The notes beneath the pieces are model-generated. The model made no database searches, had not been told where the DNA came from, and saw nothing but the letters and a program-made list of their open reading frames with translations. Positions 33,051 to 42,388 of a DNA stretch of 50,546 bases are shown here, piece by piece. The translations under genes and the position numbers were made by a program. The first letter of the stretch is position 1, and the number at the start of each line of letters is the position of its first letter. This stretch comes from Hydrogenophilus sp. (GTDB lineage: Bacteria > Pseudomonadota > Gammaproteobacteria > Burkholderiales > Thiobacillaceae): assembly GCA_020692235.1 (NCBI GenBank), contig JAIMKU010000001.1:71481-122026 (forward strand), in the 5' to 3' direction.

Positions 33051-33118
33051 TTAGAAAAGGAACCTCTGATTAAGTCCAATTCGGCGTTCCCGCGCTGGCG
33101 GGAATCCAGCAGCCTACC

Positions 33119-33186
33119 GGACCTGAAGGGTAATCGGCTGCAAAAGTGGCGGAACGGTCCATTTCCCGCCGCTTACTTGGGCAATT
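33119..33186 (-). repeat. Partial/degenerate third copy of the 160-bp MITE-like element
   Basis: GGACCTGAAGGGTAATCGGCTGCAAAAGTGGCGGAACGGTCCATTTCCCGCCGCTTACTTGGGCAAT parallels GGACTTAAAGGAAATCGGCTGCAAAATCGTCGGAACGGTCCATATTCCGCCGCTTTCTTGGGCAAT in the copy at 40.7 kb. Confidence 0.75.
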
Positions 33187-36503: not shown

Positions 36504-37583
36504 TTAACGGATAGTCAGGCCGGCTTCATACCAGCCTTTGCTGCGGTTGACGAGTTTTACTACCAGCAGCATTACCGGCACCTCGATCAGCACGCCGACC
36601 ACGGTGGCCAGTGCGGCGCCCGACTCGAAGCCGAATAATGAGATCGCCGCCGCCACCGCCAGCTCGAAAAAGTTGGAAGCGCCGATCAAGGCGGACGGAC
36701 AGGCCACGCTGTGTTTTTCGCCGACCTGGCGGTTTAGCCAGTAGGCCAGGGCCGAGTTGAAGAACACCTGAATCAGGATCGGTACGGCGAGCAACGCGAT
36801 GATCAGCGGTTGATTGATGATGGCCTCGCCCTGGAAGGCAAACAGCAGCACCAGGGTAGCGAGCAAGGCCAGGATGGAAAGATGGCCGAGCGTGGCCAGC
36901 ATGGCGTCGAACCGCGCCTGCCCCTGCTTGAGCAGCGCCTTGCGCCAGACCTGCGCGAGGATCACCGGGATGACGATGTACAGCAGCACCGAGGTGAACA
37001 GCGTCGCCCAGGGCACCGTGATCGCCGACAGCCCGAGCAGCAGGCCGACGATGGGCGCGAAGGCAAAGATCATGATGGTGTCGTTGAGCGCCACCTGCGA
37101 CAGGGTGAAATACGGGTCGCCGTTGGTCAGGCGGCTCCAGACGAAGACCATGGCGGTGCAGGGCGCGGCGGCCAGCAGGATGAGACCGGCGACGTAGCTG
37201 TCGATCTGGTCCGCCGGCAGGTACGGGGCGAACCACTGGCGGATGAACAGCCAGGCCAGCAGCGCCATCGAGAAGGGCTTCACCGCCCAATTGACGAACA
37301 GGGTGACGGCGATGCCGCGCCAGTGTTCTTTGACCTGGTGCAGGGCGGCAAAGTTGATCTTCATCAGCATGGGGATGATCATCACCCAGATCAGCAGGCC
37401 GACCGGCAGGTTGACCTGCGCCACTTCCATGCGGCCGAGGGCCTGGAACGGCGCCGGGAACAACTGGCCCAGCGCCACCCCGGCGACGATGCAGAGGAAT
37501 ACCCAGAGCGTCAGCCAGCGCTCGAACAGGCTCATCGGCGCGCCGGCGACACGCTTGGCGGTGACTTCGCACTGGGCCGACAT
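36504..37583 (-). CDS. acr3: ACR3 family arsenite efflux transporter
   Basis: MSLFERWLTLWVFLCIVAGVALGQLFP...LLIWVMIIPMLMKINFAAL...GLILLAAAPCTAMVFVWSRLTNGDPYFTLSQVALNDTIM. Confidence 0.95.
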   Translation of the reverse strand: MSAQCEVTAKRVAGAPMSLFERWLTLWVFLCIVAGVALGQLFPAPFQALGRMEVAQVNLPVGLLIWVMIIPMLMKINFAALHQVKEHWRGIAVTLFVNWAVKPFSMALLAWLFIRQWFAPYLPADQIDSYVAGLILLAAAPCTAMVFVWSRLTNGDPYFTLSQVALNDTIMIFAFAPIVGLLLGLSAITVPWATLFTSVLLYIVIPVILAQVWRKALLKQGQARFDAMLATLGHLSILALLATLVLLFAFQGEAIINQPLIIALLAVPILIQVFFNSALAYWLNRQVGEKHSVACPSALIGASNFFELAVAAAISLFGFESGAALATVVGVLIEVPVMLLVVKLVNRSKGWYEAGLTIR

Positions 37584-37585
37584 CG

Positions 37586-37999
37586 TTACAACCCCAGTGC
37601 TTCTTTGACCGCCGGCACCAGTCGGGCGCGGATCGCGTCGCGCACGGCGATGAACGATTCCACGGGTTCGCCGTGCGGGTCGTGGAAGGGCAGATGGATG
37701 CTGCGTACCGGCTTGGGAAAGATCGGGCAGGTTTCCTTGGCGTTGTCGCAGACGGTGATGACCAGGTCGATGTCCTGGTCCAGGAAGACCTCGACATCTT
37801 TCGGATAAAGACCGTCGGTGGCCAGGCCGATCTGTTTCAGCGCCGCGATGGCGCCGTCGGCCACCTTGGGTTGCGGCCGGGTACCGGCCGACACGGCGCG
37901 CGCCTTGTCGGCCAGGTCGTGGTTGACCAGGGCCTCGGCCATCTGGGACCGGCAGGAGTTGCCGGTGCAAAGGATCAGTACGGTTTTGGTCGGGCTCAT
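37586..37999 (-). CDS. arsC: Arsenate reductase, low-molecular-weight phosphatase type
   Basis: TVLILCTGNSCRSQMAEALVNHDL...SAGTRPQPKVADGAIAALKQIGL. Confidence 0.95.
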   Translation of the reverse strand: MSPTKTVLILCTGNSCRSQMAEALVNHDLADKARAVSAGTRPQPKVADGAIAALKQIGLATDGLYPKDVEVFLDQDIDLVITVCDNAKETCPIFPKPVRSIHLPFHDPHGEPVESFIAVRDAIRARLVPAVKEALGL

Positions 38000-38073
38000 G
38001 GCGTAATCCCGGTAGTGGGAAAGCGCGGACAGCCTGGACTTTTTCCATTAAATATATGTGACATAGAATATAT

Positions 38074-38418
38074 TCAAGCGCAGCAATGGCCCGGCCTGTC
38101 CACCATCCCGGCCAGGCGTTTGCGATCTGCGTCGCCGAACGCATCCGGGGTATCGCGGGCCAGCGTTTCCAGAATACGGTAGGCCCAGAGTGGAAGCTGC
38201 GGGTCGAGTCGGTAGAAAATCCAGGTGCCTTCGCGGCGCACCGCCAATAGCCCAGTCTCGCGCAGGACGGCCAGGTGCCTGGATATTTTTGGTTGGGATA
38301 TATCGAGCGCGGCGGTCAATTCGCAGACGCACAACTCACCCTGGATCAGCAACATGGACAGCAGCCGGCGACGGGTTGCGTCGGAGAGTGCGTCGAAGAA
38401 TTTCTGGATCTCCAACAT
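38074..38418 (-). CDS. arsR: ArsR family transcriptional regulator
   Basis: FFDALSDATRRRLLSMLLIQGELCVCELTAALDISQPKISRHLAVLRETGLLAVRREGTWIFYRL, with the ELCVCEL metal-binding motif. Confidence 0.96.
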   Translation of the reverse strand: MLEIQKFFDALSDATRRRLLSMLLIQGELCVCELTAALDISQPKISRHLAVLRETGLLAVRREGTWIFYRLDPQLPLWAYRILETLARDTPDAFGDADRKRLAGMVDRPGHCCA

Positions 38419-39178: not shown

Positions 39179-39261
39179 CGGTCGGGCTCCAAGGGGTAAT
39201 GAATCGGTAGCCGAAAATATCACATTGCGCGATTATCCTGTCTCGTTAACATGACGGCTAG

Positions 39262-39421
39262 GAGCCTGTCGGACTTGAAGAATCGAAGCGAAAAATTGTC
39301 TGAACGAGGACAGATTTCGACGATTTCGCTGGGCGATAGTCATTCTATTGCCCAAGAAGGCGGCGGAATATGGACCGTTCCGACGGTTTTGCAGCCGGTT
39401 TCATTTAAGTCCGACAGGCTC
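39262..39421 (+). mobile_element. 160-bp MITE-like long-hairpin element, copy A, flanked by CTAG
   Basis: GAGCCTGTCGGACTT...AAGTCCGACAGGCTC perfect 15-bp terminal inverted repeats; CTAG at 39258-39261 and 39422-39425. Confidence 0.88.
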
Positions 39422-39452
39422 CTAGTGATTGAAACACGGCTAAGGGAGCGAG

Positions 39453-39896
39453 ATGGAACTGGCTTGGTGGCATTGGATGGTGTTGGGCATGACCCTGGTG
39501 GCGCTGGAGATGCTGGTCACCACGTTTTTTTTGATCTGGTTTGGTATGGCCGCCTTGCTGGTCGGCGTGCTCATGCTATTTGCGGCGCCGGGGTTTGCGG
39601 CTCAAATGGTCTTGTGGGCGATCCTGTCGGTGGCCATGACCGGCGCCTGGCTGAAATTCTTCAAGAATCCGGATCGCACCCGACTTGGCCAGGCCAAGGA
39701 TGGGGTCAAGGGCCTCAGCGGCCTGATGACCAAACCGGTGACTGAGACCGAGTCTGGCGAGATGATGTTCCGGCGCCCGGTGCTGGGTGCTGACCGCTGG
39801 CCAGTGGTGGCGGACGAGCCAATCGCCGCCGGTGGGCGAGCGCGGGTGGTCGATGTCCTTGGCCAGACTTTGAAAGTTGAAAAGATAGGAGGTTAA
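39453..39896 (+). CDS. NfeD family membrane protein
   Basis: MELAWWHWMVLGMTLVALEMLVTTFFLIWFGMAALLVGVL...RARVVDVLGQTLKVEKI. Confidence 0.88.
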   Translation: MELAWWHWMVLGMTLVALEMLVTTFFLIWFGMAALLVGVLMLFAAPGFAAQMVLWAILSVAMTGAWLKFFKNPDRTRLGQAKDGVKGLSGLMTKPVTETESGEMMFRRPVLGADRWPVVADEPIAAGGRARVVDVLGQTLKVEKIGG

Positions 39897-39898
39897 TC

Positions 39899-40753
39899 AT
39901 GGGCGGCCAGATCGTTTCCCTGGTGTTGATAGGTTTATTGTTCCTGACCCTGTGGAAGGGCGTGCGCATCGTCCCCCAGGGCGAAGAATGGGTGGTCGAG
40001 CGGCTGGGCAAGTACCGGGATACGCTGTTGCCGGGCCTGCATATCCTGGTGCCTTACATTGATGACGTGTCCTACAAGGTCACTACCAAGGACCTGATCC
40101 TGGACATCCCCCAGCAGGAGGTCATTACCCGCGACAATGCGGTGCTGGTGACCAACGCCATCGCCTTCGTCAAGGTCACCGACACCCAGAGCGCGGTCTA
40201 CGGCGTCACCAATTTTCAGCTCGGGGTGACCAACCTGGTGCAGACCACCTTGCGAGCGATCATCGGCGACATGGACCTCGACCAGGCACTGTCCAGCCGC
40301 GACCAGATCAAGGCCCGGCTGAAGGCATCCATTGCCGATGAGGTCACCGATTGGGGGCTGACCCTCAAGTCGGTCGAGATACAGGACATTTCGCCGTCGG
40401 CGACGATGCAGAAATCGATGGAATTGCAGGCCGCCGCCGAGCGTGAGCGGAAGGCGACGGTCACCCGTGCGGAGGGCGACAAACAGGCCGCCATCCTGGA
40501 GGCCGAGGCCCGACTGGAATCGGCCAGGCGCGATGCCGAGGCTCAGGTACTACTGGCCAATGCCTCGGCCGAGGCCATCCGGCGCATTGCCGCCGCCATT
40601 CCGGACCGGGAACTGCCGGCCATGTACATGCTCGGGGAAAAGTACATAACGGCGTTGAAGGCGATGGCGTCCTCCAGCGGTAGCAAGACGGTCATGTTGC
40701 CGGGCGATCTGGTCAAGAGCATTGAGGGTCTGCTAGGAGCCTGTCGGACTTAA
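39899..40753 (+). CDS. SPFH/Band 7 stomatin-like protein
   Basis: VRIVPQGEEWVVERLGKYRDTLLPGLHILVPYIDDVSYKVTTKDLILDIPQQEVITRDNAVL...; stop codon lies inside MITE copy B. Confidence 0.94.
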   Translation: MGGQIVSLVLIGLLFLTLWKGVRIVPQGEEWVVERLGKYRDTLLPGLHILVPYIDDVSYKVTTKDLILDIPQQEVITRDNAVLVTNAIAFVKVTDTQSAVYGVTNFQLGVTNLVQTTLRAIIGDMDLDQALSSRDQIKARLKASIADEVTDWGLTLKSVEIQDISPSATMQKSMELQAAAERERKATVTRAEGDKQAAILEAEARLESARRDAEAQVLLANASAEAIRRIAAAIPDRELPAMYMLGEKYITALKAMASSSGSKTVMLPGDLVKSIEGLLGACRT

Positions 40754-40896
40754 AGGAAATCGGCTGCAAAATCGTCGGAACGGTCCATATTCCGCCGCTT
40801 TCTTGGGCAATAGAACGGCTATTGCCCAGCGAAATCGACAAAATCTGTCCTCGTTCAGACAATTTTTCGCTTCGATTCTTCAAGTCCGACAGGCCC
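40737..40896 (-). mobile_element. 160-bp MITE-like long-hairpin element, copy B (inverted relative to copy A), flanked by CTAG
   Basis: The reverse complement aligns over its full length to copy A with few substitutions; CTAG at 40733-40736 and 40897-40900. Confidence 0.88.
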
Positions 40897-41042
40897 CTAG
40901 GTCGGCACGCTTAATTTCTGGCGCGGCCCGGCGCGCCGCGCATGTTAAAATGGCCTTGCGCACAGTTAAACCTTTTTCTAAAGTATCAAGCGTAACTGTC
41001 GATATTGTCGATGTAATGAATTAGGTTCGATTGGGGTTCTCA

Positions 41043-42260
41043 ATGCAAAAGTGGTTGCTTGTGCTATTAGCGGTTCTGGTTGCTACGACCATGCCATTGG
41101 CCGAGGCGGCCGGCAAAAAACACGACAAGGTCGGCACGTCGGCCCAGGCCGCCAAGGCAACCAAATCAGTGGTGGCCACCGCCAAACACCGCAAACAGGC
41201 CCACAAACGGCATACCAAGCAGTTAGCCCAGGCCCACAAACGGCATACCAAACAGCTAGCCCAAGGCCACAAGCAGCACAGCAAGCAGGCAGCCAAGAGC
41301 CACAAACGTGTGGCTCGTCACGGCCATCGTCACCATGCCGCCGTGGCCCGCGTTGCCGCCTCGGCCATTGCCGTCCCGGTCGCCGGCAATGGCCTGAAGC
41401 CCCGCCAGAGCGTCGATCCGCTGGTCGCGAGTGTCGCGCAAGAGACCCCAGCCGGGACCAATCTGGATCTCCGCTCCGCCGCCGTGCTGGTGGTTGACCA
41501 GAAAACCGGCGAGGCGCTCTATGCCAAGAACGCTGACGTACAAACCCCCATCGCCTCAATCACCAAGTTGATGACCTCGCTGGTCGTGCTGGATAAAGGC
41601 CAGTCCCTATCGGAACCGATTACCATCAGCGTGCAGGATGTCGATCGCGTCAAGGGCACCCGTTCCCGCCTGCCGGTCGGCGCCACGCTAAGCCGTGGCG
41701 AATTGATGAATCTGGCGCTCATCGCCTCGGAAAACCGCGCGGCGGCGGCGCTGGCGCGCTCCTATCCGGGTGGCGCCGATGCCTGCATCAAGGCCATGAA
41801 CCGCAAGGCAGCCGAATTGGCCATGGCCAGTACCCATTATGTCGATGGCACCGGGCTGAATAGCGGCAATCGGTCCACTGCCGCAGATTTGGCCAAGCTG
41901 GTTAATGTGGCCTCGGCAAACCCGAACATCCGCCAGATCACCAGTACCGGCGAGTACGGCATCGATCTGCCGGGCTACAGGACCGTGCGGGTACGGAAAC
42001 ACGGCAAGACCCGTCGGGTTTCCCGTGAGGTGGAGCGGCGGGTGGCCTTTCACAACACCAATGTGCTGACCCGCGACCCGGATTGGGAGATTGGCCTGTC
42101 CAAGACCGGGTTTATCAATGAGGCTGGCCATTGTCTGGTGATGCAGACCCGGATCGCCGACCGCAAGGTCATCATGGTGTTGCTCGACTCCGAAGGCAAG
42201 ATGTCCCGGATCGGTGATGCCAACCGGGTCCGTCGCTGGCTGCAAGGCGCGGCCGGCTGA
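41043..42260 (+). CDS. pbpG: D-alanyl-D-alanine endopeptidase (PBP7/DacD-like) with His/Lys-rich N-terminal repeat
   Basis: Signal peptide MQKWLLVLLAVLVATTMPLAEA; PIASITKLMTSLVVLD (SxxK), SENRAAAALARSYPGG (SxN), LSKTGFINEAGHCLVMQ (KTG). Confidence 0.92.
   Translation: MQKWLLVLLAVLVATTMPLAEAAGKKHDKVGTSAQAAKATKSVVATAKHRKQAHKRHTKQLAQAHKRHTKQLAQGHKQHSKQAAKSHKRVARHGHRHHAAVARVAASAIAVPVAGNGLKPRQSVDPLVASVAQETPAGTNLDLRSAAVLVVDQKTGEALYAKNADVQTPIASITKLMTSLVVLDKGQSLSEPITISVQDVDRVKGTRSRLPVGATLSRGELMNLALIASENRAAAALARSYPGGADACIKAMNRKAAELAMASTHYVDGTGLNSGNRSTAADLAKLVNVASANPNIRQITSTGEYGIDLPGYRTVRVRKHGKTRRVSREVERRVAFHNTNVLTRDPDWEIGLSKTGFINEAGHCLVMQTRIADRKVIMVLLDSEGKMSRIGDANRVRRWLQGAAG
41196..41294 (+). repeat. 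33-bp coding tandem repeat (2 near-identical units and 1 degenerate)
   Basis: CAGGCCCACAAACGGCATACCAAGCAGTTAGCC at 41196 and near-identical at 41229; degenerate unit at 41262; encodes QAHKRHTKQLA. Confidence 0.9.
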
Positions 42261-42388
42261 ATCTTTGGCCGGGTGGTGTGGGCGGTGTTCGAACCCGGCC
42301 ATAAATTTACCGAGTAGCCAGGAGCCTGTCGGGTTTTGCCGGAAACGGTTTTATCGGTATCCTCCGCTGCCTGAAGAAAACCGAAGTT

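Follow-up and report, generated by a model that had tools for sequence, protein, structure and literature searches.

A family of IS1182-associated MITEs with a hairpin of fixed length conserved on one strand

MITEs are usually regarded as decayed insertion sequences, the interior of which is unimportant. The YPAL / RU-2 repeats of Yersinia are mobile, are about 168 bp long and form a stable RNA hairpin, and they are said to be co-transcribed with upstream genes (PMC2229807, PMC2759123). According to PMC2229807, they are without terminal inverted repeats and their target duplications range from 3 to 26 bp. In this study, we analyzed a stretch of 50,546 nucleotides from Hydrogenophilus sp. (assembly GCA_020692235.1, contig JAIMKU010000001.1, positions 71,481 to 122,026), hereafter called the window, in which two MITE copies flank an nfeD-like and a stomatin-like gene.

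Two copies of a multi-copy MITE with a CTAG target duplication

A repeat search of the window found two inverted arms of 168 nt (39258-39425 and 40733-40900), which include CTAG at both ends and are 94% complementary. Within the arms lie two MITEs of 160 bp, copy A (39262-39421) and copy B (40737-40896). The strand with the kept pairing (see below) is the + strand in copy A (covariance model, 151 bits on + versus 73 bits on -) and the - strand in copy B (153.8 bits on - versus 74.9 bits on +). The initial annotation had described two near-identical 160-bp hairpin elements in inverted orientation around the nfeD and stomatin genes; this description, including its coordinates, was borne out, and the ORF list confirmed that neither copy contains a transposase gene. 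All four element ends are flanked by CTAG (39258-39261 and 39422-39425 for copy A; 40733-40736 and 40897-40900 for copy B). This tetranucleotide occurs 19 times in the window, whereas base composition predicts 171 occurrences; the flanks of the two copies make up four of the 19. The terminal inverted repeats were located by repeat search at 39262-39279 (+; GAGCCTGTCGGACTT and three more nucleotides) and 39404-39421 (-) in copy A, and at 40737-40755 (+) and 40878-40896 (-) in copy B. The 15-bp repeats annotated initially are exact at three of the four ends, the right end of copy B deviating at one position (GGGCC), and the true match is longer (about 18 bp plus CTAG). When up to two mismatches were allowed, the 15-mer end occurred five times in the window versus 0.11 times by chance. 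Each copy is itself an inverted repeat (arms of 22 nt and 95% in copy A, 23 nt and 91% in copy B), and copy A folds as DNA far better than its dinucleotide shuffles (z = -9.0). Elsewhere in the window, there is a third, degenerate copy at 33108-33185 (G000:C18:104588-104665), which is 79-83% identical over about 77 bp. An intergenic 15-mer, GAGCCTGTCGGGTTT (42322-42336), has two mismatches to the MITE end, with no partner end visible.

The nfeD-like gene (39453-39896, + strand, 147 aa) is an ORF conserved in congeners; its name comes from the initial annotation and from inspection. Copy A is located in its leader, between the start of nfeD and a box, GAAAATATCACAT (39213-39225, + strand), which is similar in six aligned congeners; the box may be a promoter or an operator. 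The stomatin/SPFH-like ORF (39899-40753, + strand, 284 aa) takes its last codons and its stop codon (TAA, 40751-40753) from copy B. The C-terminus reads GLLGACRT here, its final residues coming from copy B, versus GLLSRRA in the orthologue from the closest congener, G004. By inspection, ORFs resembling an arsenic cluster (ACR3-like transporter, arsenate reductase and ArsR-like regulator) are encoded on the - strand at 36504-38418. At 41182-41308, 33-bp tandem repeats encode a stretch rich in Lys, His and Gln close to the N-terminus of the peptidase-like gene downstream.

The host assembly is a MAG of 1.82 Mb (63 contigs, 97% complete). It contains 16 full-length copies, which are 92-100% identical to copy A, together with one 143-bp copy and several fragments. 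In genomes of the same family or order, the MITE was found in 17 of the 61 searched, the host counted. Empty sites were found in G004. At the site of copy A, the host sequence ACGG-CTAG[A]CTAG-TGATTG corresponds to ATGG-GCAG-GTGTTG; at that of copy B, TCTG-CTAG[B]CTAG-GTCGGC corresponds to GCTG-CTGA-GCCGGC. The joined flanks of five further host copies (L003, L005, L008, L012 and L015) align to G004 across the junction, and the single sites are CTAG, CTAG, CTGG, CTCG and CCAG. Two other candidates (L011 and L013) were left out because they gave no clean alignment. Accordingly, seven empty sites share one 4-bp register, two of them being exactly CTAG and the others differing by one or two bases. 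Because a single 4-bp site is present in each empty locus, one site becomes two on insertion. Thus, the further copies and the empty sites that the initial annotation had proposed to look for are both present, and its assignment of a MITE with a 4-bp CTAG target duplication holds.

Fixed length and one-strand pairing of the hairpin

We scanned GTDB genomes for perfect 19-bp ends at an allowed spacing of 153-183 bp and obtained at least 122 elements. Because perfect ends were demanded, conservation of the outer 19 bp is a product of sample selection; the length and the interior are not. Among the matches listed, 117 of 122 elements are 167-169 bp long (58 at 168, 46 at 169 and 13 at 167). The record titles among these matches include Endozoicomonas, Pseudomonas, Massilia, Acidovorax, Extensimonas, Thioalkalivibrio, Sulfuricella, Nitrosomonas, Nitrospirales and Desulfobulbaceae. 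The elements listed thus range over Beta- and Gammaproteobacteria, Nitrospirota, Desulfobulbaceae and others, and MAG contamination could be the source of single odd titles. A covariance model, which was built from 31 non-redundant members and applied with no length rule, recovered members of the family from 52 of 299 genomes in the phylum, and nearly all matches were 165-169 bp. The interiors of the members are strongly diverged.

Searches of Rfam 15 gave no match for the element in the window at E values up to 1 and none at seven other loci at E values up to 0.05. Distant blastn searches of plasmid and phage collections gave no MITE match, and our literature search found no published description of this MITE family. 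This is a previously unlisted family of IS1182 MITEs, the hairpin of which is locked in length and conserved on one of its strands. Our search of bacterial papers for the end sequence found only a primer for the omcE region of Geobacter sulfurreducens, GAGCCTGTCGGACTTGGAAAT, which starts with an exact MITE end (PMC11077965), and, on the strength of this primer sequence, a MITE copy may adjoin omcE in this species. The main text of a paper on multicopy sequences in Geobacter (PMC2700814) prints no matching sequence.

RNAalifold predicts a single uninterrupted hairpin with 65 pairs, 43 of which show compensatory changes. The covariation score of the alignment is 0.512 versus 0.165 (sd 0.008) for shuffled alignments, none of 500 reaching it, and a slid alignment gives at most 0.129. 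Internal-loop motifs (TCGnAGCGA, CGAG, AGGCG and GCAG) recur. The members were oriented by sequence homology and independently of their folds. In 30 of 31 members, the homologous strand gives the more stable RNA fold (mean -101.8 versus -88.1 kcal/mol). In 46 independent close pairs of elements, changes between Watson-Crick and G-U pairs outnumber those between Watson-Crick and A-C pairs by 111 to 23 (p = 5e-15); when the paired positions were defined without regard to G-U, the counts were 105 and 31 (p = 1e-10). The opposite strand, given its own best structure, shows 23 G-U and 82 A-C changes. The excess of G-U over A-C changes therefore marks one strand as that on which pairs are kept, the pattern of a structured RNA or of single-stranded DNA. 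Because the strand preference is the same under DNA energy rules (31 of 31 members), RNA and single-stranded DNA are indistinguishable here. Within the host genome, recent changes comprise 13 G-U and 7 A-C, with no significant strand preference; these small numbers look as if selection acts on spreading lineages and not on resident copies.

MITEs with the same ends and CTAG were also seen in another genome (G007, L328-L334). They are modular (56, 188, 194, 272 and 274 bp) and fold end to end, but their interiors, made of one or two hairpin modules, are unrelated to that of the present family, and they show no consistent strand preference. A full hairpin may be favoured generally for MITEs of this IS group, whereas the conserved 168-bp interior is peculiar to the present family.

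The folded strand might act as an RNA in host transcripts, where co-transcribed hairpins would insulate adjacent mRNAs or make them more stable, a function proposed for YPAL and similar repeats. The tolerance of G-U pairs on one strand agrees with this idea, and so does the frequent placement of insertions at the 3′-ends of genes. With neighbour genes called by a simple ORF rule, the TAG of the flanking CTAG is the stop codon of the incoming gene in 35 of 168 non-intragenic sides versus 8.6% at other CTAG sites (p = 4.5e-5). Since a CTAG stop is restored when the element inserts there, landings of this kind would do no harm. Insertions lie in convergent gaps more often than in divergent gaps (40 to 18, p = 0.005). 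However, the orientation relative to co-directional neighbour genes is unbiased (20 sense and 27 antisense, p = 0.38), which counts against a one-orientation role in host mRNAs, and there is neither a promoter nor host-level conservation of single insertions. We therefore consider a role in host transcripts rather unlikely.

A strand preference without function is less probable again. The hairpin and its G-U excess might have been inherited from one ancestor or have arisen by mutation bias: all elements are homologous, and the changes within the host genome are not significantly biased. Against this, the G-U excess was counted in 46 close pairs of elements that do not overlap; it arises whether the starting pair is G-C or A-U, and no matching bias is present at unpaired sites (C/T 35, A/G 51).

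The transposase partner and the nfeD-stomatin gene pair

In MITE-bearing genomes of Extensimonas (three species), Endozoicomonas (two) and Massilia glaciei, we found IS1182 transposases (NF033551) in elements with CTAG and [C/G]AGCCTGTCGGACTT-type ends; in SKS4.bin47, an IS1182 ORF with one such end was seen. The same CTAG and ends are present in ISAzo1 of Aromatoleum, several Pseudomonas plasmid elements and one Methylobacter element annotated as IS1182. The 15-bp ends of the MITE are identical, or nearly so, to those of IS1182 elements in Extensimonas, Endozoicomonas and Pseudomonas plasmids. In two Extensimonas species (L260 and L286), a MITE and an IS1182 element adjoin with one CTAG common to both, as would follow if the two elements target CTAG alike. 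Thus, the search for an autonomous IS with the same ends, which had been suggested from the window, led to IS1182 in at least six other MITE-bearing genomes. The host MAG yielded no IS1182 gene, which makes present mobility in this genome doubtful, and the host copies look orphaned. Partner transposases are often lost, and a partner in the same genome is supportive rather than strictly defining.

The initial annotation had instead considered that an IS5-like transposase could mobilise the copies in trans; such enzymes duplicate YTAR sites, a rule with which the 4-bp CTAG duplication agrees. A 1.16-kb element with these ends (G026), which carries an internally deleted IS1182-family transposase, also gives a weak NCBIfam match to an IS5 model, 47 bits against a cut-off of 140. 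However, the full-length elements with the MITE ends score above the cut-off for IS1182 and are named IS1182 or ISAzo1-like in RefSeq, and no IS5 element is among those recovered by these ends. An IS5-group origin is therefore very improbable, and the proposal of an IS5-like partner gives way to IS1182.

The further suggestion that the inverted pair lets the nfeD-stomatin cassette invert, or move as a composite unit, is scarcely tenable: two inverted copies of 94% identity do flank the genes, but the order and orientation of the two genes are as in the window in the congeners whose locus was found, the cassette stands at the same locus in G004 with the sites of both copies separately empty, and, by simple arithmetic, about 20 copies in 1.8 Mb give a probability near 0.27 for a pair within 1.5 kb. 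Copies A and B were inserted independently of each other and came to lie around the gene pair by chance, and neither makes the genes mobile; the local inverted pair is real but ordinary.

A proposed mode of spread and comparison with known elements

The best explanation overall, which we hold with good confidence, is that two MITEs were inserted independently by IS1182 acting in trans and that their hairpin has been preserved on one strand. An IS1182-family transposase would recognise the 15-18 bp ends; the ends, the partner and the duplication are read from sequence, and transposition by this enzyme is what we propose. The MITE would be inserted at CTAG, with the same 4 bp duplicated. Beyond the ends, the element is a hairpin with a fixed length of about 168 nt, the pairing of which is preserved by compensatory changes on one strand. 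The likeliest reason would be that this strand, either RNA from read-through or transient single-stranded DNA, has to fold for spread or tolerance of the element. We favour a role of the folded strand in the element's own spread. The chances seem to us evenly balanced for the broader claim that IS1182-type ends have spread a mobile hairpin of fixed length (about 168 nt) through several bacterial phyla, that selection acts on one of its strands, be it as RNA or as single-stranded DNA, and that this folded strand helps in its own mobilisation or in having its insertion tolerated.

In this family, length and fold of the interior are the same in different phyla despite sequence change, and the substitutions point to the strand that has to fold; these features go beyond the initial annotation. 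The family therefore provides a testable case of a bacterial MITE carrying a functional single-stranded hairpin. It also connects IS1182 with a repeat family that had been an orphan, and the covariance model is usable for annotation. The excess of insertions at TAG stops within CTAG suggests a simple way of landing with little coding damage.

The closest relatives by ends are the IS1182 / ISAzo1-like elements, which have the same CTAG flank and near-identical 15-bp ends. They differ from the MITE in that they encode a transposase of about 440-520 aa within 1.5-1.6 kb. The MITE covariance model has no match in their interiors, and a simple origin by internal deletion from IS1182 is unsupported. 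Among MITEs, Correia/NEMIS, ERIC and RUP, as listed in a table of PMC2229807, are likewise small non-autonomous hairpins with terminal repeats and target duplication. They have TA at the termini and other lengths, and it is by description that we set them apart. YPAL / RU-2 is like the present MITE in length (about 168 bp), mobility and hairpin. However, the two are not the same family: their ends differ, and an nhmmer search of the published RU-2 sequence with our family model gives no hit.
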